Below, piece after piece: positions 10,585 through 52,514 of a DNA stretch of 52,514 nt. The notes beneath the pieces are model-generated. The model saw only the letters and a list, made by a program, of their open reading frames with translations. It did not search any database and was not told where the DNA came from. The position numbers were made by a program, and so were the translations under genes. Origin of the DNA: Patescibacteria group bacterium (GTDB taxonomy: Bacteria; Patescibacteriota; Patescibacteriia; Patescibacteriales; BS150m-G62); the NCBI GenBank assembly GCA_016784175.1, contig JADHVC010000001.1, positions 69,567 to 122,080 of the forward strand, given 5' to 3'. Positions within the stretch are counted from its first letter, which is position 1, and each line of letters opens with the position of its first letter.

Positions 10585-12312
10585 ATGGAAAGCATTGTCG
10601 ATATATTAACCGATAGACAAGATGGACAAACGACATTAAACACTATTTGCGCATCACTAGGTGAAGGAATTTTTATTACAAATGAGCACCTAATAGTTAC
10701 TCATAGTAATGAAGCATTTCATCGCTTAACTAAATTAGCAATTGGAGATACCTTATCTGACTCTTCCAAAATATTTGGTTTTAGTTTGTACGAAAGAGCA
10801 GAAATCTGGAAAGATCTCCTAAAGAAAGGTTCATGGAAAGGTGAAATTACTATTCATAAAGACGATGGCAAGACAAGAATTAATAATCTATTTATTAGCC
10901 TAATACAAAGGAAGGAGTCTGATAATAAGATTTTTCGCTGCATCGGAATAATAAACGATATAACCGAAAAAAGACTTTATGAAACTAGCGCTAAAAATAG
11001 CATCTGCCCATCAACTGGTCTACCACTTAGAGACGCATTCATAAAAAAACTATCCGATCTAATTTTCAACAATAAGAAAAATAGATCACACTTAACCACG
11101 GCTGTTCTTTACATATCAATTACTCACAACTTAACTGGCATAGCTGGCATTGGAACAATCGATCACCTCATGACACTGGTAGCCAATATTTTAGGTGAAC
11201 ATAGTCGTAATAGAGATGTATTAGCTCGGTCAAATGGATCAACTTTTCTGCTCTTACTGCCAGACCTTGATAAAGCTAGACATGCCTCGTCAATTGCTCA
11301 ACGAAAAATAAACAGACTCCGAGAGCCAATTCTTGTTGGTGATAAAACTGCCCAAGTACGAATTCAAGTTGGTATAGCTATTTATCCTGACGACGCTGAC
11401 AACGCTGATTCACTAATTGATCATGCTCATCTTGCTTTAACAAAAATTGAAAAAAAAGAGTTTGGTTGGGTTATGTTTTCACAAAAAATGCAAGAAGCTG
11501 CCAATAGACGATTCTTACTCGAAACTGACATGAGAACATCAGAGCGAAATAATTTCATAGGATTTTATCTCGTTTATCAACCACAACTAAACCTAACTAC
11601 CGATGAAACGAATGGAGTCGAAGCGCTATTACGCTGGAATCACCCAAGTGGAGAAGAAATTAGTCCACTCGAATTCATTCCAATTGCCGAAGAAACTGGC
11701 ATAATAATAGCTCTTGGTGCCTGGGTATTAGATAAAGCATGTACTATGGCCAGAGTATGGGAACAGAACCATCACCCAATAACAATAGGCGTCAATGTAT
11801 CTGCCGCTCAAATAAACGAAAGCCATTTCCTAGAAACTGTAGTTAACACGCTCAAAAAAACCAACCTATCGCCTCCATTACTAGAGCTAGAAATTACAGA
11901 GTCTATGCTCTTAAATGATATCGATAAAGTTATTGCGATACTTCACCAACTAAAAAAACTAAATGTAAGAGTTGCAATCGACGATTTTGGAACAGGTTAC
12001 TCTAGCCTTTCAATGCTACCTGTCCTACCAATCGGTCGAATAAAAATTGATCGCTCCTTTGTAAAAAAACTAACACAAACTGGTGAAAGCATAGCCATAA
12101 TTGATGCAATCATAAAAATAGCCAAAAGCTTAAGACTGTGCTCAATTGCTGAAGGTGCTGAAAGTAATGGCGAACTAGTAATCTTAAAAGAACATGGTTG
12201 CGAAGAACTTCAAGGATTCTTTCACTCCAAACCAATTCGTGAAGAATCTATCCTCCCCTTCCTTAAACAAGAAGAAGCTATGAGACAAAAAGCATCCTAT
12301 TTACCAAATTAA
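10585..12312 (+). CDS. PAS-GGDEF(degenerate)-EAL cyclic-di-GMP phosphodiesterase
   Basis: 575 residues, cytoplasmic, with no membrane segments. A PAS sensor (about 15-130, ending GIINDITEKR) is followed by a GGDEF-like domain (about 145-290) whose active-site loop reads RSNGSTFLLLL, so the GGDEF signature is lost and cyclase activity is unlikely. The EAL domain (about 305-565) keeps the residues needed for c-di-GMP hydrolysis: EALLRW near 345, N in GVNVSAAQ, E in LEITESM, IDDFGTGYSS near 465, K in IKIDRSF, E in AEGAES and Q in ELQGFF. It probably degrades c-di-GMP under control of a small ligand or redox signal sensed by PAS. c-di-GMP enzymes are sparse in CPR bacteria, and no partner cyclase is in the window. 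It is monocistronic. Confidence 0.9.
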   Translation: MESIVDILTDRQDGQTTLNTICASLGEGIFITNEHLIVTHSNEAFHRLTKLAIGDTLSDSSKIFGFSLYERAEIWKDLLKKGSWKGEITIHKDDGKTRINNLFISLIQRKESDNKIFRCIGIINDITEKRLYETSAKNSICPSTGLPLRDAFIKKLSDLIFNNKKNRSHLTTAVLYISITHNLTGIAGIGTIDHLMTLVANILGEHSRNRDVLARSNGSTFLLLLPDLDKARHASSIAQRKINRLREPILVGDKTAQVRIQVGIAIYPDDADNADSLIDHAHLALTKIEKKEFGWVMFSQKMQEAANRRFLLETDMRTSERNNFIGFYLVYQPQLNLTTDETNGVEALLRWNHPSGEEISPLEFIPIAEETGIIIALGAWVLDKACTMARVWEQNHHPITIGVNVSAAQINESHFLETVVNTLKKTNLSPPLLELEITESMLLNDIDKVIAILHQLKKLNVRVAIDDFGTGYSSLSMLPVLPIGRIKIDRSFVKKLTQTGESIAIIDAIIKIAKSLRLCSIAEGAESNGELVILKEHGCEELQGFFHSKPIREESILPFLKQEEAMRQKASYLPN

Positions 12313-12390
12313 CAATCGATCTTTACAAACAAACCCCATACACTTCACATGGAGTTTTTAATATTACTTTTTTTAGTAATCAACTACTAA

Positions 12391-13812
12391 TTATAATTTT
12401 TCATACTCCACCTTTACTACCTTTCGATCATCCCATGGAATAGTTTCACCATTTTTTACACAAATTGCTTGCTCAGAACCCTTACCTGTCACCAACACAA
12501 CATCATTTTTCTTTGCCAAACTCAAGGCCTTAAAAATTGCTTTCCGTCTATCCTCAATAATATACAAATCTTTATCTTCCTTTTTACCACCTTTTTTTGC
12601 CCCCACTGCCACATCTATCATAATTTTTAAAGGATCTTCATCATACGGATCTTCGTTGGTTACTATTACAATGTCAGCATTTTGTGCAGATATTTTACCA
12701 AGCTCTGGTCTGCGTGCTACATCCCGACCACCTCCAGCCGAACCAAGAACATGAATCACTCTACCCCCTCTCAATTTAGCATTAACTATATCAAATAGCT
12801 TATGCAAAGCGACTGGTTCAAATGCATAATCAACTATTATTTTAAAATTCTGACCAAAATCAAGCTGCTCTAATCTTCCTGGAACACCCCTTATCTTTTT
12901 TAAATAATTTTTTATTTTTACCATTTTTAAATTCTGAGTATAGGCTGCCACTATCCCAAAAGAAACATTCATAACATTAAATTCGCCTAACATATATAAT
13001 TCAAAATCATAAATAGGATAAAGCTCAAATTGCATACCGAGCTTATTCACTTTCAACTTATTTATAGATATTTCTTCTATTTTATTTTCAAGCAATTTGT
13101 CTTCTCCGGACTTAACTTCAAATTTTTTACTTTTTATTTTATATTTTTTTTCTGCCCAAAAACGCAAAAAATAATCACAATAATCATCATCCCCATTAGC
13201 TATAATAATTTTCTCTACTCTTTTTGCTTCTGATTTTTCATTTTTACTTAAACCAGTCAAAACATTTTTTTGATCATCAATATGCTTTACCTTACACTTC
13301 TCTAAGTGCGCAAAAAGTAAACCCTTAGCTTGCTTGTAATTTTCAAACCCGCCATGTGACTCTAAGTGCTCGGAATAAAGGCCAGTAAAAACCAACACAT
13401 CATAGTCTATAAAACGATGACGAAATTGAACAATACCCTCTGAAGTAGTTTCAATAATAACATATCTACAACCGTTCTTTACCATTTGCGAAAGCATTTT
13501 TTGAGTAAAGAAACGACCAAGCATAGTCATTTTTTTATCATTAAGCCAATCACGATCTCCATTAGAAAACATAGCAGTTGATGTGTATCCCACTTTTAAA
13601 CCACATTCCCTAAACATTTCAGCCATCAAATAAACACTTGTTGTTTTACCAGTTGTGCCTGTAACTCCAATTACAATTAACTTCTCCGATGGAAACCTAT
13701 ACCAAAAAGCTGCAACATAGCTCATTGTATAGTGATAATAAGGCTGAAAAAATTTAAATATAGGGCCAGGAATTATTTTCTTAATAACCACTAACACTCT
13801 TTGAGTAAACAT
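12391..13812 (-). CDS. Mur ligase, MurE-like
   Basis: 473 residues. ATP-dependent amide ligase of the Mur family: P-loop VIGVTGTTGKTTSVYLM, the central domain, then the C-terminal domain with VDYAFEPVAL (compare VDYAHTPDAL of MurE) and GSAGGGRDVARRPELG. The usual substrate would be UDP-MurNAc-dipeptide, with the third residue of the peptidoglycan stem added. The DNPR motif that marks diaminopimelate-specific MurE is replaced by TNEDPYDEDP, so the amino acid added cannot be read off. The first 30 residues resemble a membrane-facing amphipathic segment. It lies 6 bp downstream of the FemAB-like gene, so the two form one operon for peptide stem and cross-bridge synthesis. Confidence 0.8.
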   Translation of the reverse strand: MFTQRVLVVIKKIIPGPIFKFFQPYYHYTMSYVAAFWYRFPSEKLIVIGVTGTTGKTTSVYLMAEMFRECGLKVGYTSTAMFSNGDRDWLNDKKMTMLGRFFTQKMLSQMVKNGCRYVIIETTSEGIVQFRHRFIDYDVLVFTGLYSEHLESHGGFENYKQAKGLLFAHLEKCKVKHIDDQKNVLTGLSKNEKSEAKRVEKIIIANGDDDYCDYFLRFWAEKKYKIKSKKFEVKSGEDKLLENKIEEISINKLKVNKLGMQFELYPIYDFELYMLGEFNVMNVSFGIVAAYTQNLKMVKIKNYLKKIRGVPGRLEQLDFGQNFKIIVDYAFEPVALHKLFDIVNAKLRGGRVIHVLGSAGGGRDVARRPELGKISAQNADIVIVTNEDPYDEDPLKIMIDVAVGAKKGGKKEDKDLYIIEDRRKAIFKALSLAKKNDVVLVTGKGSEQAICVKNGETIPWDDRKVVKVEYEKL

Positions 13813-44530: not shown

Positions 44531-44605
44531 GCGGGTATCGTATAATGGTTATTATACCACCTTGCCAAGGTAGTGATAGGGGTTCGATTCCCCTTACCCG
44601 CTCCA
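44531..44605 (+). tRNA. tRNA-Gly (GCC)
   Basis: Acceptor GCGGGTA pairs with TACCCGC, discriminator T, CCA encoded at 44603-44605. The anticodon loop TTGCCAA gives anticodon GCC. T arm GGGGTTCGATTCCCC is perfect. The anticodon stem CCACC/GGTAG has one C-A mismatch, which is slightly unusual. Its 3' end is the likely integration site of the downstream element, since the integrase stop codon is only 5 bp away. Confidence 0.92.
44581..44605 (+). other. Putative attachment site (attL) at the tRNA-Gly 3' end
   Basis: Tyrosine integrases often use the T arm and 3' end of tRNA genes. The integrase gene at 44611 abuts this tRNA on its 3' side and points towards it. A second copy of the tRNA 3' end (attR) was looked for to the right and not found inside the window, so the element should extend past 52514 or have a short core. 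Confidence 0.55.
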
Positions 44606-44610
44606 GGATT

Positions 44611-45771
44611 TTAGAGAGGTTTGCTATTCTCTAAATGTTTAACATTAGCCAAGATATTACTAGTATCTTGGTTTTTGTTTTGGATGATTTTAGTGGTAAA
44701 AGCTGGACTGTTGACCATATACTGCCCAAAATTCTTACAATATTCTTTTTTAGACTCTAGAGTGGCTACTGCGTCTTGTAAATTAGAAGAACTTAAATGT
44801 GAATACCTGAGAGTTGTTCTAATATCAGAATGACCGAGTAATTGCTGAATGACCTGAATAGCTATTCCGTTTTGTGCTAGGTGCGAAGCGAATGTATGCC
44901 TAAAAACGTGCCAACCAATGTGACGCAAACCCACTCTCTTGCAAAGCCTCTCTAGATACTTACAAGCAGAGCCTTGTTTTATAGAACCGCCTTCATTACA
45001 AAAAACATAGCCTGTTACTTTTTGTCTACCTTTAAGCATACAATTCCCATCGCTATTTAATTCCACATGCCTAATTTTATTACTCTTAGTACTATTTTGA
45101 AGTACACCGCCAACAATAGTTCTTCTAATAGTCAAAACATTCTTTACTAGATCAACATCACTCCAGTCTAAGGCTATCAATTCGCCAAATCTTAAACCTG
45201 TCTTAATAGCCAATAGTATCATGTCCTTATATTCACCTTTAGCATTATCTAGCAATAAATCACACTCACCTATGGTTAAATAATCGAATTTAACTGGATC
45301 CAACTTTAATAACTTAATAATTGGCACATTCTCTACATCACCCCATTCTTTTGCCACAGAAAGACACTTAGCCAATACTGCAAGTTGATTATTAACTGAT
45401 TTTCTAGTTAAACCCTTCTTTAAGCGACTAGCTTTAAATTCTTCCACATTAACATTCTTAATAGAATCTAAAGACATTCTGCCAAAAAATGGAACAAGAT
45501 GGACTCTCAAAAGCCGCTCTTTTGTTATTTGCTCAGATAGCTTATTGTTATTTTTAACATAAACTTCAAACCACCTTTGAGAGAACTCTTTAAAGCTAGG
45601 GATATTAACTACTTCTTCAACAATTGGCTCGCCTCGAGCAAGCCTTTGGCGAAGCATGGCTTCATAGGATTGGGCTCCAGCCTTAGTGTTGTCAGGTGAA
45701 CGCCTTCTATGGCGCACCCGATTAAAGCGGAAGTCTACCCACCAAGCACCGTGTACTTTTCTTATACTCAT
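44611..45771 (-). CDS. Tyrosine recombinase/integrase
   Basis: 386 residues. N-terminal Arm-type region (HGAWWVDFRFNRVRHRRRSP), a core-binding SAM-like domain (FKEFSQRWFEVYVKNNNKLS), then the catalytic domain with Arg194 (TGLRFGELIALDW), Lys in NSTKSNKIRH, His288 and Arg291 (HVFRHTFASHL), His314 (LLGHSDIRTT) and Tyr323 (LRYSHLSS). All catalytic residues are present. It sits last in the minus-strand gene run, 7 bp after the excisionase, and ends at the tRNA-Gly 3' end, as expected of an integrated phage or satellite. Confidence 0.93.
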   Translation of the reverse strand: MSIRKVHGAWWVDFRFNRVRHRRRSPDNTKAGAQSYEAMLRQRLARGEPIVEEVVNIPSFKEFSQRWFEVYVKNNNKLSEQITKERLLRVHLVPFFGRMSLDSIKNVNVEEFKASRLKKGLTRKSVNNQLAVLAKCLSVAKEWGDVENVPIIKLLKLDPVKFDYLTIGECDLLLDNAKGEYKDMILLAIKTGLRFGELIALDWSDVDLVKNVLTIRRTIVGGVLQNSTKSNKIRHVELNSDGNCMLKGRQKVTGYVFCNEGGSIKQGSACKYLERLCKRVGLRHIGWHVFRHTFASHLAQNGIAIQVIQQLLGHSDIRTTLRYSHLSSSNLQDAVATLESKKEYCKNFGQYMVNSPAFTTKIIQNKNQDTSNILANVKHLENSKPL

Positions 45772-45778
45772 ATTAATT

Positions 45779-45973
45779 TTAATTAATTGACTCCACCCTA
45801 TTACTTTTCAGGTAATCCGCTATATCAGACTTTTCAAAACGTAAGCTACCCTTAATTTTAAAGAAAGGGATAGCTCTAGACTCAACTATGCGATACACGC
45901 TAGTCTTTGATACATTTAGCAACTTAGCTAATTCCTCTGGCCTTATTAGGTTTTCATTTATAGAATCAATCAT
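45779..45973 (-). CDS. Excisionase-like helix-turn-helix protein
   Basis: 64 residues, HTH_17/MerR-like: RPEELAKLLNVSKTSVYRIVE then IPFFKIKGSLRFEKSDIADYL, the usual winged-helix arrangement of excisionases and phage-type binding proteins. Its position directly upstream of the integrase supports a role in excision, that is, directing the integrase to remove the element. Regulatory function on the element's promoters is also possible. Confidence 0.85.
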   Translation of the reverse strand: MIDSINENLIRPEELAKLLNVSKTSVYRIVESRAIPFFKIKGSLRFEKSDIADYLKSNRVESIN

Positions 45974-46082
45974 TTATTTAATTGTTAATGAGCAATATAG
46001 GTTGAATAGATTTCTATTCATGGGCTATATTAACTCATAACATATTTTTTGGTTTACTTGGTGTGGATAAAAATACTTATTC

Positions 46083-46454
46083 TTATTTTCTATTAACATC
46101 AATCCCATTTTTACTAGCAATTATAGGATCAATAGTTACAATAATGTTATTGTTTGTTTCTGCACTTTTCTCCTGGACCCTATAACCCGCTCTATCAAGG
46201 ATATCTTTTGAAGCACTTAATCTTACTGCCTCGTTTATTGCGCTCTGACTTAGCTCATAAATTACAATAACTGCGCTCTTAGCAATTCTATCCAAATATG
46301 CTCGAATACTAGGTTTTGCTAAGTTCTCGGCTCCAACTGCATTAGCCGTTTGCCTGTTTTTAACAGAATAAGAGCGCTCTGCCGCCTCAGTGGCATTACC
46401 AGTTTCCAAATACTCCACACAGAAATTTTCTTGTTTTTTTGTTAACTTGTTCAT
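46083..46454 (-). CDS. Phage terminase small subunit (terminase_2 type)
   Basis: 123 residues. LTKKQENFCVEYLETGNATEAAERSY is the typical terminase small-subunit start (helix-turn-helix binding of cos/pac DNA), followed by TANAVGAENLAKPSIRAYLD, then a helical stretch and IVTIDPI at the end. It recognises the packaging site. No terminase large subunit, portal or capsid gene is in the window. In phage satellites a private TerS redirects the helper's packaging motor to the satellite DNA. A chromosomal non-packaging role cannot be excluded. Confidence 0.8.
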   Translation of the reverse strand: MNKLTKKQENFCVEYLETGNATEAAERSYSVKNRQTANAVGAENLAKPSIRAYLDRIAKSAVIVIYELSQSAINEAVRLSASKDILDRAGYRVQEKSAETNNNIIVTIDPIIASKNGIDVNRK

Positions 46455-46475
46455 TTTTTAAATTTAGGCTCACAG

Positions 46476-46650
46476 CTTCACATTTTAGAAATTTATAGCT
46501 ATTACTAGCTAAAAGATTCCGTGAAGGTAACCGTGAAGATGTCGATAGCGTGAAAGCTACAAACTTCACATTTTTCATCTTTCACACATACTTCACACTA
46601 ATTTTTAACCTAAAATTAAAGTAAATTTTCCTGAACGTGAAGTTGTGAAC
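46476..46650. repeat. Iteron-like cluster, candidate replication origin of the element
   Basis: CTTCACA-type sites at 46476, 46564, 46579 (CTTTCACAC) and 46591, and inverted CGTGAAG-type sites at 46520, 46532, 46549 (CGTGAAAG), 46636 and 46644 (TGTGAA), nine in about 175 bp, with an AT-rich segment near 46597-46630. The cluster lies between terS and the helicase gene and runs into the helicase's last codons. This layout is that of a Rep-bound iteron origin. Confidence 0.6.
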
Positions 46651-48145
46651 TCTTTTCTTTTAAATCAAGCACCTTTCTCTTTAACCTACTATCACCGCAC
46701 CTCTCAATCACATCAAAAAGCCTTTCTCGCTTTATCAAATAACGTGCACCACCTTTTCCTGGAACCCTATCGTAATCGCTACTATCAGTACCATTAATTA
46801 AATTATTATTTATAATCAACTTTCCAACACTAGTAGAGGTTGCTGGAATAGAACCTGGAATATCTTCTAGTAATTTACTATTTAAACAATCAAGTAAATT
46901 CTTATTCTCAATCTTAATAGATGTGACACTTAAATCACTAAAAAACAAACTTAGTAAATACTCGAGTACATAAAATATCCGCTCAGTATCTTTTTGACTT
47001 ACCACCGAATCACTAACTTCATCTTTTTTTACAATGTAATCTCTAAGCTCCTTTCTTCCAGTAAAATGAAGTTCTATGCCCGCTATTATTGATACGATGT
47101 CAGCCCTTCTTGATCGAGCAGCATCTCTAGAAAACTCTTCGCTGACATTATTAATATCAGCCATAATAGCTCGACCATTTAGCAAGCAATAGCAAAATAT
47201 TCTATTTGTTAACATCTGAAACCAAGTATCCCTTCCATCATCAACCCCATACAAATCGCTTGTCTTCTTCTTTCCACCAATGGTATTAATGGTAAGACAT
47301 CTATTCCGTAAAGTTACATCCAAATTATTTTTATTCGTACTAAAATTCTTTGTTGAAAATGTATAATAATAATCAACCCTGTTTCTATCCCTATCACTCA
47401 TTAATTCATATACTCCACCCTTGGTAAAACCAGAGTTAAGAATCCCAAGTAAATTCAATCTATCTGCCTCTGAATACTTATCAAATTCATCAATACCCAC
47501 ACTACTCTGAAACTGATGTGTCTTTCGACACAGTGCAGCCATAGTAACCTTACTGCAGAACGAACCATGATAAAGCAATTTAGACATTAGAAATTGTAAC
47601 GTAGTCTTACCAGTGCCTTTGCGACCATCAAGCAAAAGATATATTGTTCGTCCAATAATATTTAATAAATAGGAATGAATAATATAACAAGTACATAATT
47701 TTAACTCATCTAAATCTAAAAAATCATAATAAGTTGATAGAGTGCATTGAATATCATTAAATAATTCTTCTTTCTGAGGACTCTCACCATCTAAAAACAT
47801 AGCTATCCCTTGGTTACTCACTGTATTAATTAACATTTTATGACCAGAGAGTTTACCACTCTTAAAAACATATTTCTCTCCTTTATATTCAATAAAGTGG
47901 TACTGATCATCGTCACTACATTCAACCCCAATAAAAGTCCTATCTTCAAATAAAACTAGCGGCTCACAACACAAACCATTGTCTCTAAAAACCGTATGGT
48001 AAAATTTACCATCAATAAGACCGCTCAATTCAATTTTTTTAACCCCTTCTTTTCTCAACTGCCTAATAAAATCTTTATGTGGATTTTTATCAGCCCCTCG
48101 TAGAAGATTAGAAACATGCTCTTCTTTTTTTGTTATTTTTTCCAT
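46616..48145 (-). CDS. SF3/D5-like replicative helicase
   Basis: 509 residues. A poorly conserved N-terminal half (1-160) precedes an AAA-type helicase: Walker A LLLDGRKGTGKTTLQF (residues 171-186), Walker B VGIDEFDKYSE (217-227), and the sensor region YTFSTKNFSTNKNN with RNRCL as a possible arginine finger. Such proteins act as initiator/replicative helicases of phages and satellites. It stops at 46616 inside the iteron cluster, and 1 bp separates it from the primase gene upstream. No primase polymerase domain is fused to it. Confidence 0.78.
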   Translation of the reverse strand: MEKITKKEEHVSNLLRGADKNPHKDFIRQLRKEGVKKIELSGLIDGKFYHTVFRDNGLCCEPLVLFEDRTFIGVECSDDDQYHFIEYKGEKYVFKSGKLSGHKMLINTVSNQGIAMFLDGESPQKEELFNDIQCTLSTYYDFLDLDELKLCTCYIIHSYLLNIIGRTIYLLLDGRKGTGKTTLQFLMSKLLYHGSFCSKVTMAALCRKTHQFQSSVGIDEFDKYSEADRLNLLGILNSGFTKGGVYELMSDRDRNRVDYYYTFSTKNFSTNKNNLDVTLRNRCLTINTIGGKKKTSDLYGVDDGRDTWFQMLTNRIFCYCLLNGRAIMADINNVSEEFSRDAARSRRADIVSIIAGIELHFTGRKELRDYIVKKDEVSDSVVSQKDTERIFYVLEYLLSLFFSDLSVTSIKIENKNLLDCLNSKLLEDIPGSIPATSTSVGKLIINNNLINGTDSSDYDRVPGKGGARYLIKRERLFDVIERCGDSRLKRKVLDLKEKSSQLHVQENLL

Positions 48146-48146
48146 A

Positions 48147-48767
48147 TTAATAATTTTTTAAATATTTTAATGCTTCATAGAAATCTAAGTTTTGCTCAAA
48201 CGAGACAAAGTTAACAACATTGCCAGCTTTGCCACAACCAAAGCAATAAAATGACTCGGATTCTTTGTAGACACATAAACTTGGATTTTTATCATCATGA
48301 AAAGGGCATCTCATGGCCAATTTATCACCAAGAGAACGTACACTAGAGTAATTCTCCTCAACATAAACTGACAGCAACACCTTTTCAATAATTACGTTAA
48401 TATCAATAAAGCCTGAATTCTGAGCCTGTGACTTGCTGTGTAAAAAAAGATAAGGAATAATTTTAGATGCACTCATGATGAGCTCCTCTATTAAGCATCT
48501 AATCAATACATCAACAATCTCCTCAGTAATATCTTGCTCATCACCACACAACACCCCTCTATACTTACTAAGCAAATAACGTCTTTTTGAATCAAGCTCC
48601 TTAAATTGCTGTGACAATATAGACATATTCTCCTGAGCTATTTGCCTTAATACCTCCTCACCAAAGACTTCCTGATACTCTTTAGTTGTAAAATGTTGCC
48701 TACTCATTTTCCAGTCTTTTTCTAGATCCCTTATAAAAAGATCTTCTATTGTTTTTTCATAATTCAT
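48147..48767 (-). CDS. CHC2 zinc-finger primase fragment protein
   Basis: 206 residues. Residues 1-140 are helical and not recognised. The C-terminal 65 residues form the DnaG-type CHC2 zinc finger: MRCPFHDDKNPSLCVYKESE with C154 and H157, then FYCFGCGKAGNVVNFV with C175 and C178. There is no TOPRIM domain, so it cannot be a complete primase; it may recognise template DNA for a host or helper primase. Translationally linked to the helicase gene, so the two probably form a loading unit. Confidence 0.78.
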   Translation of the reverse strand: MNYEKTIEDLFIRDLEKDWKMSRQHFTTKEYQEVFGEEVLRQIAQENMSILSQQFKELDSKRRYLLSKYRGVLCGDEQDITEEIVDVLIRCLIEELIMSASKIIPYLFLHSKSQAQNSGFIDINVIIEKVLLSVYVEENYSSVRSLGDKLAMRCPFHDDKNPSLCVYKESESFYCFGCGKAGNVVNFVSFEQNLDFYEALKYLKNY

Positions 48768-48781
48768 ATTTTCAAATATTT

Positions 48782-49021
48782 TTAACCGTGAATCATATGC
48801 TTAATATTCTGCATTGCATCAACAAATGTCTTGGGGTTTATCATTAATTCGTTGTTATAATACTTTTTTATCACATCCTCACACTCTTCCTTATTTTCAA
48901 AAACAAAATAAGTAACTCCACCTTCCTGATAACTTTGATCAAGTCTTAAGCCCAAACTCAATAATAGAGCAGACAAAAAACGATCTTTTGTCTCATATAA
49001 TTCGCAATATTGATTTTCCAT
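48782..49021 (-). CDS. DUF5659-like small protein
   Basis: 79 residues: LYETKDRFLSALLLSLGLRL, TYFVFENKEECEDVIKKYYN, INPKTFVDAMQNIKHMI. The order matches DUF5659, a small family often seen beside CHC2/primase genes in CPR mobile elements (memory only, not searched). Function unknown. It is the first gene of the primase-helicase-terS-xis-int run, 14 bp ahead of the CHC2 gene. Confidence 0.6.
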   Translation of the reverse strand: MENQYCELYETKDRFLSALLLSLGLRLDQSYQEGGVTYFVFENKEECEDVIKKYYNNELMINPKTFVDAMQNIKHMIHG

Positions 49022-49041
49022 AATTTTAAATTTTAATAATT

Positions 49042-49074
49042 AAAAAAGACTATTCTTCTCATAGAATAATCCTT
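49042..49074 (-). terminator. Terminator between the 248-aa gene and the replication operon
   Basis: An imperfect hairpin, AAGACTATTC (49046-49055) against GAATAATCCTT (49064-49074), one bulge and one G-U, followed on the minus strand by TTTTTT. It separates the gene ending at 49123 from the DUF5659 gene starting at 49021. Confidence 0.6.
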
Positions 49075-49122
49075 AAAAATTAATCTGAAATCTACTTATA
49101 ACTAGAACAAATAAAATTCACA

Positions 49123-49869
49123 CTACACATCATTTCTAATCTTTCTTTGTTCAGAGATAATCTTTCTTACATTACCTTCATCTAACTTATATCCAGACTC
49201 TTTCATTATATCGGCAATTATAATATCTTTATAATTTGTTGTCCTATGATCATTAGCTGATATTTTTCTTAATATTTCAATACTAAAAAGACTCAACTCA
49301 TAAATCACGCAATTTCGTTTAAAATCCTTATAACTCCTTATTCCTTTCTTATTTTTCAATTCTTTCGTTTGAGCAACAATACCCTGAAATACCTCAATAG
49401 CCTTGTTATTTTTCTTTATAAATTCTTTCAAATCAGAGATGTTTGAATTATCTCCAACCCTTAAATACACACCACTTTTAAAACTCTTTGTTTCGCCCAC
49501 ACGAACCAACTCCAAGCTACATCCTGTTAAGTTTAAACAATGTAGCCTTGGAGAGCCACCTAAAAATAAATACTGCTCAACAACTAAACTAAAATCATCG
49601 TAATAGTTAAATTTTTGTTGAATATCATTCTTAAACTTTATTAAAATATTAAAAGGATGTTTTTCAGATTCAAGCCCTTCTTTAACTAAATTCTTTTTAC
49701 ACCATTTTTCATACTCAGAGATTCCAAAATATGGTTTATTATAAACCACCTCTCCCGCAAAACCATTTTTTGGTATATTTAAAAGAAATCTACATTCTCT
49801 AACCTTTTCATTAAAAAACTTTGAAATTGATATTCTACACCAAAGCACATAAGCCTTTTTTACACTCAT
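49123..49869 (-). CDS. Element-encoded protein of unknown function
   Basis: 248 residues, not recognised. No membrane segment or signal peptide. The N-terminal part is mixed alpha/beta with LLNIPKNGFAGEVVYNKPYF; the C-terminal 60 residues resemble a helix-rich, DNA-binding-like region (IIIADIMKESGYKLDEGNVRKIISEQR). It is at the divergent end of the element's minus-strand genes and has its own terminator, which is the position often taken by regulators in phages and satellites. That role is inference. Confidence 0.5.
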   Translation of the reverse strand: MSVKKAYVLWCRISISKFFNEKVRECRFLLNIPKNGFAGEVVYNKPYFGISEYEKWCKKNLVKEGLESEKHPFNILIKFKNDIQQKFNYYDDFSLVVEQYLFLGGSPRLHCLNLTGCSLELVRVGETKSFKSGVYLRVGDNSNISDLKEFIKKNNKAIEVFQGIVAQTKELKNKKGIRSYKDFKRNCVIYELSLFSIEILRKISANDHRTTNYKDIIIADIMKESGYKLDEGNVRKIISEQRKIRNDV

Positions 49870-50150
49870 ATTAATATTAATTTACATAATCATAACTCCA
49901 CTCATCTTACCAAAAACACTTAATAATTCAAAAAAATACTACATTGCATCACTCAAGCATTGACAAAAATCAATATTTCTGCAAATATTAAGATGTTATT
50001 TTGACATGTTGTCGAATAACTCACTTTAAGACCTGCTTAAGTCATGGCCTGCGGAGACACCAGCATGATGCAGATTTTAAAGGACAAGCGTTGCGCTAAA
50101 CCCGCAATTTAAACGCTCTTTTCAATCAAGTAAAACAATTTAGGAGAAAA
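49870..50150 (+). promoter_or_regulatory. Divergent regulatory region with structured leader
   Basis: 281 bp between the 248-aa gene (minus) and the 401-aa gene (plus). TTGACA boxes occur at 49960-49965 and 50001-50006, the only perfect -35 boxes near this gene. The leader can form ACTTTAAG(50023-50030)/CTTAAGT(50036-50042) and a two-part hairpin with AGCG/CGCT (50087-50090; 50114-50117) and TTGCG/CGCAA (50091-50095; 50103-50107). TAGGAG precedes the start codon at 50151. Confidence 0.45.
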
Positions 50151-51356
50151 ATGATGACTGCTCGTACCAGCACTGCAAAAAAAAACCAACTATTACAAAT
50201 GGCAGGTAAACTATCTGGACAATTTGCAAAGGCAACAAGCCTTGTGTTAGAGGGCAAAAGAACACCTGAAGAAATTTCTGTTTTAAATAAGGCACTACAA
50301 CTTTTTCGTGAAGGAAAATTAACACTAACAACCATTAAAGCTCCCATTAAAAAAACGACTCAAGTTCAATCAATACTTTCTATAAGAATAGAAGACCTCT
50401 CAATCTCAGATAGCTTGAAAAAATATTTAAAAAAACGGGGCATCTTTTATGTTGGTGAACTTTTCCTCATAAACAATGACATCAAAGCTCATGCACGAGC
50501 AGATGAAGTTAAAGAGCTTATTCTAAATTCACTAGGTCTTCCTTTATCACTTAATGTCCATGAATTATGGATACCTCCATATTGGAGTGATGAAGAATTT
50601 CAAGATGCGCTATCTAGACCCATTAATGAATTAATTGATAACCGTCCTTTACCTCAAAAAGACCTAAAAAAATACGTTATTCCTGGAAGATTTATAACTG
50701 ATACGCATGGAGTATTTCTAATTAGCAGAAAAGTACATTACGGCAATCAATATATTAACTGGGTTAAATATAACGTAGAAAGTGGAAGGCATGATTTAGA
50801 TGGCAATTGGAGTATAACCGAATTACAAAAAGCTCAATCGCTACTACTACCCAACTCTGGATTGCATGCAGCGGCATTACCAGCACCAAACTGGATACTA
50901 CCCACTAAAAAACCAGATGCTTGGTATATTGTAAAAACAAGAATTGAAACAATGATGGTCGATGAAATAAACAAAAGAGAGGTAAAAAATGGAGAATGCA
51001 TGTGGCTTAAAATGGCCAGGAAATTAAAACTAACGCAAGTAGCTCGCCTCGAAATGACGGTAAGAGAGTTCTTTCTTTATGGCACTGGTGAAAATGAAGA
51101 GTTTGAAGATACACTATTAAAGCAAATTCCCATGGGCATAGAGCGATGGTTAACAGAATCTAACATCCCCATGTTAAATTTCCTAACAATGACTCGCTCT
51201 GATTTAGCTATGAAAATTAAGTCAAGTTATACTGTATGGAATATTTCATGGAATATATCAGACCTAGATAGTCTAGATGAAGCTCTTAGAAAACAATTCA
51301 ATTTACTCCTATATTTAGAAATTGATGATGCACGCGAGAGCCTGGGATACGAATAA
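50151..51356 (+). CDS. Unknown protein with RNA-polymerase-alpha-CTD-like HhH segment
   Basis: 401 residues starting at ATG-ATG with TAGGAG upstream. The N-terminal 60 residues are helical and basic (TARTSTAKKNQLLQMAGKL). Residues about 80-125 (IEDLSISDSLKKYLKKRG, then IFYVGELFLINND) resemble the helix-hairpin-helix repeat of the RpoA C-terminal domain, which binds DNA or partner proteins. From 150 on nothing is recognised, though Trp/Tyr-rich stretches (WIPPYWSDEEFQ, INWVKYNVESG) recur. No family assigned. It is a transcription unit of its own with a strong terminator at 51367. Confidence 0.6.
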   Translation: MMTARTSTAKKNQLLQMAGKLSGQFAKATSLVLEGKRTPEEISVLNKALQLFREGKLTLTTIKAPIKKTTQVQSILSIRIEDLSISDSLKKYLKKRGIFYVGELFLINNDIKAHARADEVKELILNSLGLPLSLNVHELWIPPYWSDEEFQDALSRPINELIDNRPLPQKDLKKYVIPGRFITDTHGVFLISRKVHYGNQYINWVKYNVESGRHDLDGNWSITELQKAQSLLLPNSGLHAAALPAPNWILPTKKPDAWYIVKTRIETMMVDEINKREVKNGECMWLKMARKLKLTQVARLEMTVREFFLYGTGENEEFEDTLLKQIPMGIERWLTESNIPMLNFLTMTRSDLAMKIKSSYTVWNISWNISDLDSLDEALRKQFNLLLYLEIDDARESLGYE

Positions 51357-51489: not shown

Positions 51490-51668
51490 CCATTTTAAAT
51501 GGCATGGCTAAAAAAACCGACCAAGACACAGAGAACTCCTCGTTCAGTTTGTGCCTTGGTCGGTCGTGACTTGAAAAAGTCATGGGTGAAGCAATTCACC
51601 ACGCTGGCGAGGAGCTTTTTGTTTTAAAAGCATTCGCACCAGCCTAATTAAGTCCGACCAAGGCCATG
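51490..51668 (+). ncRNA. Structured RNA leader of the Dam methylase gene (riboswitch-like)
   Basis: Helices, all read directly. P0: CATGGC 51503-51508 with GCCATG 51663-51668, covering the start codon. P1: ACCGACCAAG 51516-51525 with CTTGGTCGGT 51555-51564, extended by CACA/TGTG. P2: TGACTT-GAAA-AAGTCA, 51567-51582. P3: GGTGAA-GCAA-TTCACC, 51585-51600. P4: GCTGG 51603-51607 with CCAGC 51639-51643. Pseudoknot: CTCCTCG in the P1 loop (51536-51542) with CGAGGAG (51608-51614). Both P2 and P3 have GNRA loops. A second copy of the P1 left strand, CCGACCAAGGC at 51654-51664, lies directly before ATG and can instead pair over 11 bp with 51553-51563. That would be a mutually exclusive switch controlling translation. 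No known class was recognised. Confidence 0.75.
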
Positions 51669-52481
51669 AAAAATCAAATAACCCCACAACCCTTTGTAAA
51701 ATGGGTTGGTGGTAAACGCTCACTTATTAATGAGCTTATTAAGCGTTTGCCAAAAAATTTTAATAGCTATTATGAGCCATTTATAGGAGGTGGCGCATTA
51801 TTCTTTTCTCTATGCAATAAACTAGAGAAAGCTATTTTGATCGACAAGAATTTAGAGCTAGTTATCACCTACAATGCAATCAAGAAGCAACCAAAAAAAT
51901 TAATAGAAAGACTAAAACAACACGCCCGAAATCATTCTGAAACACATTACTATTTTGTGCGTCAAAATAAACCAACGAGTCCGTTAGATATTGCGGCTCG
52001 TTTTTTGTATTTAAATAAGACTTGTTTTAATGGGCTTTATAGAGTCAATAAAAGTGGTGGTTTTAATGTGCCAATAGGTAAATATAGTAATCCAAATATT
52101 GTTCAAGAAAGCAATATTCTAGCCTGTCATAAAGCATTAGATGTAGCTGAAATTAAGTATGGTGATTTTAGCCATGTAGAGCCTCAGAAACAAGACTTTG
52201 CTTACTTTGACCCACCATACCACCCAACCAGTGAAGCCTCGTTTACAGCCTATACTAAAGACAATTTCATGGAGTCAGATCAAATAAGACTTAGAGATTA
52301 TATAGTAAAACTTCATAGAAAAGGAGTTTACATAATGCTATCTAACTCAAGTACTGAGTTTATTCGAGACTTATACAAAGCTAAGTATTTTAATCACCAC
52401 GAAGTCTTTGCTCCTAGGTATATTAATTGTAAACCTGGAGAGCGTGGCAAGGTAAGCGAACTATTAATTACTAATTATTAA
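51666..52481 (+). CDS. dam: DNA adenine methyltransferase (Dam/DpnIIA type)
   Basis: 271 residues, D12 class N6-adenine methylase. FVKWVGGKRSLINEL near residue 10, SAM motif YYEPFIGGGALFFS (residues 36-49), target domain RFLYLNKTCFNGLYRVNKSGGFNVPIG and catalytic DPPY at 182-185 (YFDPPYHPTSEASF). All motifs are present. GATC is the usual target of this subfamily but has not been tested here. There is no standard Shine-Dalgarno; AAGG is only 2 nt from the ATG and lies in a strand of the structured leader. The next frame starts 4 bp downstream and looks like the restriction partner, so this is likely the M gene of a restriction-modification pair. Confidence 0.92.
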   Translation: MKNQITPQPFVKWVGGKRSLINELIKRLPKNFNSYYEPFIGGGALFFSLCNKLEKAILIDKNLELVITYNAIKKQPKKLIERLKQHARNHSETHYYFVRQNKPTSPLDIAARFLYLNKTCFNGLYRVNKSGGFNVPIGKYSNPNIVQESNILACHKALDVAEIKYGDFSHVEPQKQDFAYFDPPYHPTSEASFTAYTKDNFMESDQIRLRDYIVKLHRKGVYIMLSNSSTEFIRDLYKAKYFNHHEVFAPRYINCKPGERGKVSELLITNY

Positions 52482-52485
52482 AAAT

Positions 52486-52514
52486 ATGAAACAAGGAACA
52501 CGAGCTAATTTTAC
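52486..52514 (+). CDS. Start of a probable restriction endonuclease (partial)
   Basis: An ATG 4 bp after the methylase stop opens a frame reading MKQGTRANF to the window edge. The GTRAN start resembles, from memory, a group of PD-(D/E)xK restriction enzymes that begin with GTRANATGK-like sequence next to Dam-type methylases. Only nine residues are visible, so this is a pointer, not an assignment. Confidence 0.35.

Follow-up and report, generated by a model that had tools for sequence, protein, structure and literature searches.

Phage satellites are known from a few well-studied groups, namely, Proteobacteria, Firmicutes, Cyanobacteria, and Actinobacteria. Bacteria of the candidate phyla radiation (CPR, Patescibacteria) have very small genomes and are mostly uncultured and mostly episymbiotic; their phages and gene exchange are little known. 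The locus described here lies in a window of 52,514 nucleotides from a CPR genome. It contains a 12.6-kb island in the 3' end of a tRNA-Gly gene, which is probably a phage satellite similar to the phage-inducible chromosomal islands (PICIs). The first-pass annotation of the window had proposed such a satellite, and the proposal is supported by the att-bounded anatomy of the island, its set of modules, the homology of its terminase small subunit (TerS), and its recurrence in CPR.

PICIs carry an integrase, a replication module, and a master transcriptional regulator in a conserved organisation, are about 12-15 kb in size, and use unique att sites that are never occupied by prophages. They share genes that are orthologous among PICIs and exclusive to them, some encode their own TerS, and they depend on a helper phage for induction and are transferred in phage particles (PMC6092414). 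The model of the phage-inducible chromosomal minimalist islands (PICMIs) comprises an integrase, AlpA (PF05930/PF12728), a DUF3987/DUF5906 primase, and Fis (PMC10803314).

The organisation of the island corresponds to that of PICIs: it includes an integrase, a CHC2 primase with a helicase, and an HTH_17 protein of the xis/AlpA type, which may act as the master regulator. The distance between its att cores, 12,597 bp, falls within the PICI size range, and a sibling island in genome G317 has a length of 8.5 kb. Structural genes are missing according to Pfam and PHROG scans, and a TerS gene is present, as judged by homology. The att sites give a mixed picture: specific tRNA-Gly repeats can be seen, yet an inovirus-like prophage adjoins attR, and the int-xis pair is also found in an inovirus-like element. 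No PICI-exclusive orthologues were recognised; the ATPase/helicase, the DUF5659 protein, and ORF8 match no Pfam or PHROG family of known function. As for PICMIs, the integrase and the PF12728 protein are present, and no match to DUF3987/DUF5906 or Fis was found among the proteins of the element. The genes of a temperate tailed phage (the terminase large subunit (TerL), portal, major capsid, and tail genes) were likewise not recognised. The island does have the features of the CPR recombinase-DUF5659 islands, namely, a DUF5659 gene and a gene for a site-specific recombinase no more than a few kb apart and no TerL, portal, or major capsid gene.

Boundaries and core genes of the island

The window corresponds to positions 69567-122080 of contig C54 in a genome of 1.21 Mb and 61 contigs; its right end is the end of the contig. 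As had been claimed, the element abuts a tRNA-Gly 3' end: the integration target is tRNA-Gly(GCC), identified by ARAGORN at 44531..44605 on the plus strand, and the stop codon of int is located 6 bp past its end. The attL core, GGGTTCGATTCCCCTTACCCGCTCCA, occupies positions 44580..44605 of the plus strand. A whole-genome search detected one additional copy of the tRNA-Gly 3' end, on contig C33, where an identical 26-bp attR is located on the minus strand (locus L011, 11855-11880). No attR was found within the window because the element leaves contig C54. The last 139 bp of C54 match the end of C33 exactly; the methyltransferase gene ends at 52481, and the nuclease gene, starting at 52486, spans the junction, with its full length contained in C33. 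The joining of the two contigs is thus supported by the terminal overlap, operon continuity, and the matching att core. Rightward extension reached attR on C33, and the end initially set at 49869 is too short: the element runs to 52514 and then onto C33 down to attR. The island is chromosomal, since nusA, smpB, and the tmRNA gene are on the same 122-kb contig. The assignment of the host to CPR is supported by a locus of a same-class genome (L068), which is identical to JAHJAU010000082.1, deposited as "Patescibacteria group bacterium". The sampled genomes of this class are about 0.6-1.7 Mb in size and belong to very many families.

The core genes are all on the minus strand and follow, from the tRNA, in the order int, xis, terS, P-loop ATPase, CHC2 primase, DUF5659, and ORF8. 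This one-strand set, listed in the first-pass annotation, was confirmed by Pfam and PHROG matches and by the layout of the open reading frames (ORFs); the order does depart from that of the classical Staphylococcus aureus pathogenicity islands (SaPIs), as was noted there, with terS lying between xis and the helicase gene. The tyrosine integrase (44611..45771, 386 aa) matches PF00589 (3e-31) and PHROG 1 (8e-68) and is 40% identical to the G317 integrase. A broad alignment of integrases with 23 rows contained too much diversity to serve as a search profile. The HTH_17 xis/AlpA-like regulator (45779..45973, 64 aa) matches PF12728 (5e-14) and PHROG 66, "excisionase and transcriptional regulator" (6e-9), and shares 49% identity with the G317 xis.

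The P-loop ATPase (46616..48145, 509 aa) is a probable replicative helicase. It matches no Pfam family, and its homologues are helicases of other DUF5659 islands (G738, 9e-10; G177, 1.4e-10), including the CHC2-TOPRIM-helicase protein of L156 (4e-10). The proposed SF3-like nature of this protein is only partly borne out: the relation to the helicase part of CHC2-TOPRIM-helicase proteins stands, whereas the match to a VapE-like helicase is marginal. The next gene (48147..48767) encodes a CHC2 zinc-finger primase protein of 206 aa (PF01807, 7e-19). As the L156 protein is homologous to the ATPase, the primase and helicase of the window look, from sequence comparison, like a probable split version of a CHC2-TOPRIM-helicase protein. 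The 79-aa DUF5659 protein, a marker of the CPR recombinase islands, is encoded at 48782..49021 (PF18903, 2e-12). ORF8 (49123..49869, 248 aa) is the first gene of the leftward operon; it belongs to no recognised Pfam or PHROG family and has a 223-aa homologue in G317 (3e-5), while no homologue was detected in the other TerS islands. A 60-aa ORF at 46396-46578, which overlaps the start of terS, was left out of the gene count.

Directly beyond attR, at about 3981-11866 of C33, an inovirus-like prophage is located. It encodes a Zot-like ATPase (PF05707, 7e-15), a G2P-like Rep (PF23343, 1e-15), short hydrophobic proteins similar to coat proteins, a pIII-like protein of 556 aa, and a serine recombinase, the 3' end of which runs into the tRNA-Gly att core. 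In addition, locus L065 of genome G083 contains the same int-xis family (int at 11290-12396) in an element with Zot-like and pIII-like genes; this module is therefore common to satellites and filamentous phages in CPR. These two observations would fit a satellite of the filamentous prophage itself. We consider this barely credible, since filamentous phages are not known to use terminases, and neither an inovirus packaging gene nor a rolling-circle Rep was recognised in the island.

TerS, sequence signals, and the absence of particle genes

The terS gene (46083..46454, minus strand) encodes a protein of 123 aa with matches to PF03592 (Terminase_2, 2e-13), PHROG 51 (2e-16), PHROG 2606, and PHROG 2538. 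The Terminase_2 match covers the N-terminal 61 residues, while the PHROG terminase families reach residues 101-110. A profile of twelve CPR TerS proteins aligns with positions 2-116 of 122 in the solved SF6 TerS 3zqp (E 9e-19); matches of comparable strength to unrelated families were not obtained. The structural model, with pLDDT of 90-97 over residues 1-60 and lower values beyond, has the SF6 TerS DNA-binding domain 4zc3 as its best fold match (prob 1.0, TMt 0.87), followed by NV1 TerS. The protein can accordingly be counted, by homology that extends beyond the helix-turn-helix (HTH), as a TerS of the packaging type. A terS-like protein with no DNA-packaging relatives would have spoken against a satellite; such relatives were found both by the near-full-length profile match and by the fold matches.

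Four AGAGCG sites are located inside terS on the minus strand, at 46188, 46241, 46274, and 46371 (46188..46376); the site at 46371 is the palindrome AGAGCGCTCT. A GC-rich 6-mer reaches this frequency in 0.5% of codon-preserving shuffles of the gene. The related SPP1/SF6 phages have pac inside terS. As many motifs were tried, the repeats are only suggestive, as a speculative pac or TerS-binding site. Between terS and the helicase gene, there is an iteron-like GTGAA/TTCAC cluster (46476..46597). It was pointed out in the first-pass annotation and proved to be real: eight copies are present in about 165 bp from 46476, more than in any of 200 simulated windows (mean maximum 3.2, highest 6). It is a candidate replication origin. 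The divergent intergenic region at 49870..50150, between the leftward core operon and the rightward cargo, is a probable control region; one rightward promoter-like site was found in it (49960-49989), at a level not above that of shuffled sequences.

Pfam and PHROG scans from the window through C33 to attR revealed no TerL, portal, capsid, or tail gene, so the absence of structural genes, noted at first for the part in view, holds for the remainder as well. When 62 proteins from eight TerS loci were pooled for a PHROG scan, no particle gene was recognised; nor was one seen when the 40 proteins that did not belong to the recognised classes were scanned again, this time listing all families. Three CPR phage loci served as a positive control, and there this library did identify TerL, portal, major capsid, and adaptor proteins. 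A genome-wide TerL test with PHROG 2 missed the divergent TerL of contig C30, which was found later by other families; for this reason, single-family genome searches were not taken as proof of absence. Positions 1-5593 of C30 (L021) encode a second TerS, this divergent TerL (Terminase_6N, 7e-8), an exonuclease, and a DnaD-like loader, followed by cargo and not by portal or capsid genes; this locus is possibly a prophage remnant or another type of satellite.

The int, xis, primase, helicase, and terS genes are all usual in temperate phages, and the C30 locus of the same genome has no recognised portal or capsid gene adjacent to its TerS/TerL pair. The island might, thus, be the remnant of a prophage from which the structural genes have been lost by decay, with terS retained beside the integration and replication genes. 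This seems improbable to us: both att sites are intact, the core genes and att sites also look intact in G317, and TerS accompanied by DUF5659 but not by TerL is seen again in several lineages, each time at a different att site. Separate events of decay would not yield one common gene set.

Related islands in CPR genomes and their cargo

The sibling in G317, a genome of the same class, is a contiguous 8.5-kb island on a 569-kb contig between 23-bp repeats of a tRNA-Gly(TCC) 3' end. It encodes int, xis, a Prim-Pol/VapE-like primase-helicase, DUF5659, the ORF8 homologue, terS (38% identity of the protein with that of the window), and two cargo genes. The integrase family is present in 34 of 381 genomes of the class, and more than a dozen of its elements have direct repeats spanning 4.7-14.5 kb, mostly at a tRNA 3' end. 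Among the fetched elements of this kind, TerS was found only in the window and in G317. Close integrase relatives were also observed in Uhrbacteria, Kaiserbacteria, Ignavibacteria, Babeliales, Syntrophobacteraceae, and Bradyrhizobium records (L080-L095), which hints either that the module has been transferred widely or that contigs were mis-binned. In IMG/VR and phage records, no close relative could be confirmed for the helicase or the integrase, and for the helicase none was confirmed in genome contigs either.

In a survey of the phylum, Terminase_2 was detected in 11 of 380 genomes. In the combined TerS survey, TerS is accompanied by a recombinase without TerL at eight CPR loci (the window, G317, G714, G709, G738, G678, G753, and G679), so islands of this kind recur in other CPR genomes. 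TerS beside TerL was found at five loci (C30 of the same genome, G798, G613, G603, and G670:C16), which indicates that tailed phages exist in these hosts; four further loci on short or unclear contigs were counted in neither class. The most compact island, about 5.8 kb in length, is that of the one-contig genome G679, with terS, a 214-aa protein, DUF5659, a CHC2-TOPRIM-helicase, and a serine recombinase. The 4.6-kb island of G678 (L114, 7142-11788) encodes TerS, a serine recombinase, and a trypsin-like protease and is bounded by a repeat, 17 bp long, of a tRNA-Met end; no replication gene was recognised in it. An exact-repeat att search in the serine-recombinase islands gave nothing convincing besides this tRNA-Met repeat, as expected for short cores. 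On the TerS tree, the G678 protein groups with a TerS from one CPR phage (95/96); a few pairs excepted, the tree is too poorly resolved to distinguish one origin of the satellite TerS from several. The same response-regulator-like small protein is encoded beside terS in two unrelated CPR genomes (L111 of G670:C34, 3417-3827, and L113, 9260-9682).

DUF5659 was detected in 73 of the 380 genomes from CPR, whereas 14 control genomes gave no match. All 20 sampled DUF5659 neighbourhoods contain a serine recombinase (19 by profile search and G679 by ORF reading), with no recognised TerL, portal, or capsid gene, and only G679 has TerS. The abundance of such islands with 19 of 20 lacking TerS, together with the similar lack in most int-xis elements of the same family, would suit a CPR integrative island that is not packaged by phages; its TerS-like protein would act in replication or as a regulator that binds DNA, and the island would be transferred by transformation, vesicles, or mobilisation. 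We regard this as unlikely, given that the TerS homology extends past the HTH into the oligomerisation region, that at least eight islands, which differ in the type of their recombinase, encode TerS, with one of these proteins grouping with a CPR phage TerS, and that the scan of 62 proteins recognised no relaxase.

The cargo of the window element is encoded on the plus strand. A 401-aa protein without an assigned family in the Pfam scan (50151..51356) is followed by a D12/Dam-type N6-adenine DNA methyltransferase (51666..52481; PF02086, 6e-57; type II/orphan methyltransferase according to PADLOC) and a 152-aa PD-(D/E)XK nuclease (52486..52514, continued at L011:16571-16113; PF20472, 3e-37). 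The C33 section (16112 to 11855) encodes three small proteins, a 398-aa protein, a Zeta-toxin-like kinase (14023-12545; Zeta_toxin, 1.5e-8), and a 116-aa protein and ends with attR. Many CPR tRNA islands with this int-xis pair (L061-L078) carry cargo that looks defence-like by eye, including type I restriction-modification-like, SIR2-like, and large helicase-like proteins, which suggests that they are mobile defence islands.

Proposed cycle and comparison with known satellites

If the island is a PICI-like satellite, its cycle would begin with infection by a tailed phage or with the induction of one. Int and the AlpA-like Xis would excise the island at the 26-bp att repeats, and the helicase and CHC2 primase would replicate it, probably from the GTGAA/TTCAC cluster. 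The island TerS would then bind the island pac, perhaps the AGAGCG repeats, and recruit the helper TerL, so that island DNA would be packed into helper capsids and could integrate again in a new cell. The methyltransferase with the nuclease and the Zeta-like kinase may protect the host or stabilise the island.

Several points weigh against this interpretation. As for a helper, the host genome has one TerS/TerL locus (C30), and a portal search found nothing; no capsid-remodelling or interference gene was recognised in the element. No related contig was confirmed in IMG/VR or phage records. The AlphaFold model of the ATPase, based on a three-sequence alignment, had a pLDDT of 34 and was discarded. 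The island crosses a contig break, and the exact overlap there probably reflects a branch of the assembly graph; as such ends usually mark a branch, the sample may contain another version of the island. Finally, since most recombinase-DUF5659 islands have no TerS, TerS may be an accessory gene in a broad family of CPR islands, or the satellites that bear it may form a subset of that family.

The first-pass annotation knew of no satellite from CPR hosts, and a literature search, with subscription journals and preprints mostly outside its coverage, likewise found no report of phage satellites in Patescibacteria/CPR; the novelty is, therefore, likely rather than certain. If the satellite interpretation is true, the att-bounded TerS island and its siblings in several CPR lineages extend phage parasitism to CPR and provide a defined route of gene transfer there. 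DUF5659 with a recombinase, with or without TerS, can serve as a marker for searching existing genomes and virus-fraction reads, and a compatibility between TerS and TerL common to islands and CPR phages is predicted for the helpers. Tentatively, and with a good deal of doubt, one might suppose that the recombinase-DUF5659-primase/helicase islands, present in about a fifth of the sampled CPR genomes, form a phylum-wide family of phage satellites, some with their own TerS and the rest with pac or cos mimicry. In that case, satellites would rank among the main routes of gene exchange and of anti-phage defence in CPR.

The CPR recombinase-DUF5659 islands share with the window element the DUF5659 gene, the CHC2 primase-helicase, a recombinase, a one-strand core, and the same lineage of replication genes; most of them, however, use a serine recombinase and have no TerS, whereas the window element has a tyrosine integrase and TerS. 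The PICMIs of Vibrionaceae (PMC10803314) are also small satellites with an integrase, an HTH AlpA protein (PF12728, the xis family), a primase, and defence-type cargo, but the window element differs in its CHC2 primase with a separate helicase and in its TerS. By description, the island can also be likened to virion-encapsidated integrative mobile elements (VEIMEs) and Tycheposons, islands of environmental bacteria thought to be carried in phage particles (named in PMC10803314 and PMC11389934); these come from marine bacteria and cyanobacteria, unlike the CPR-borne element. With PICIs, both SaPIs and those of Gram-negative bacteria (PMC6092414), it shares int at the tRNA-side end, an AlpA/Xis-like regulator, a replication module, terS (as in some members), the lack of structural and lytic genes, the size of 12-15 kb, and accessory cargo. 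It differs from them in its CPR host, DUF5659, a helicase and primase without recognisable PICI orthologues, the position of terS, the lack of recognised capsid-remodelling or interference genes, and the lack of a known helper. Because no PICI-specific orthologues were found and the evidence on att uniqueness is mixed, the element is best called PICI-like by function and not a PICI by descent, that is, a functional analogue of the SaPI/PICI lineages.

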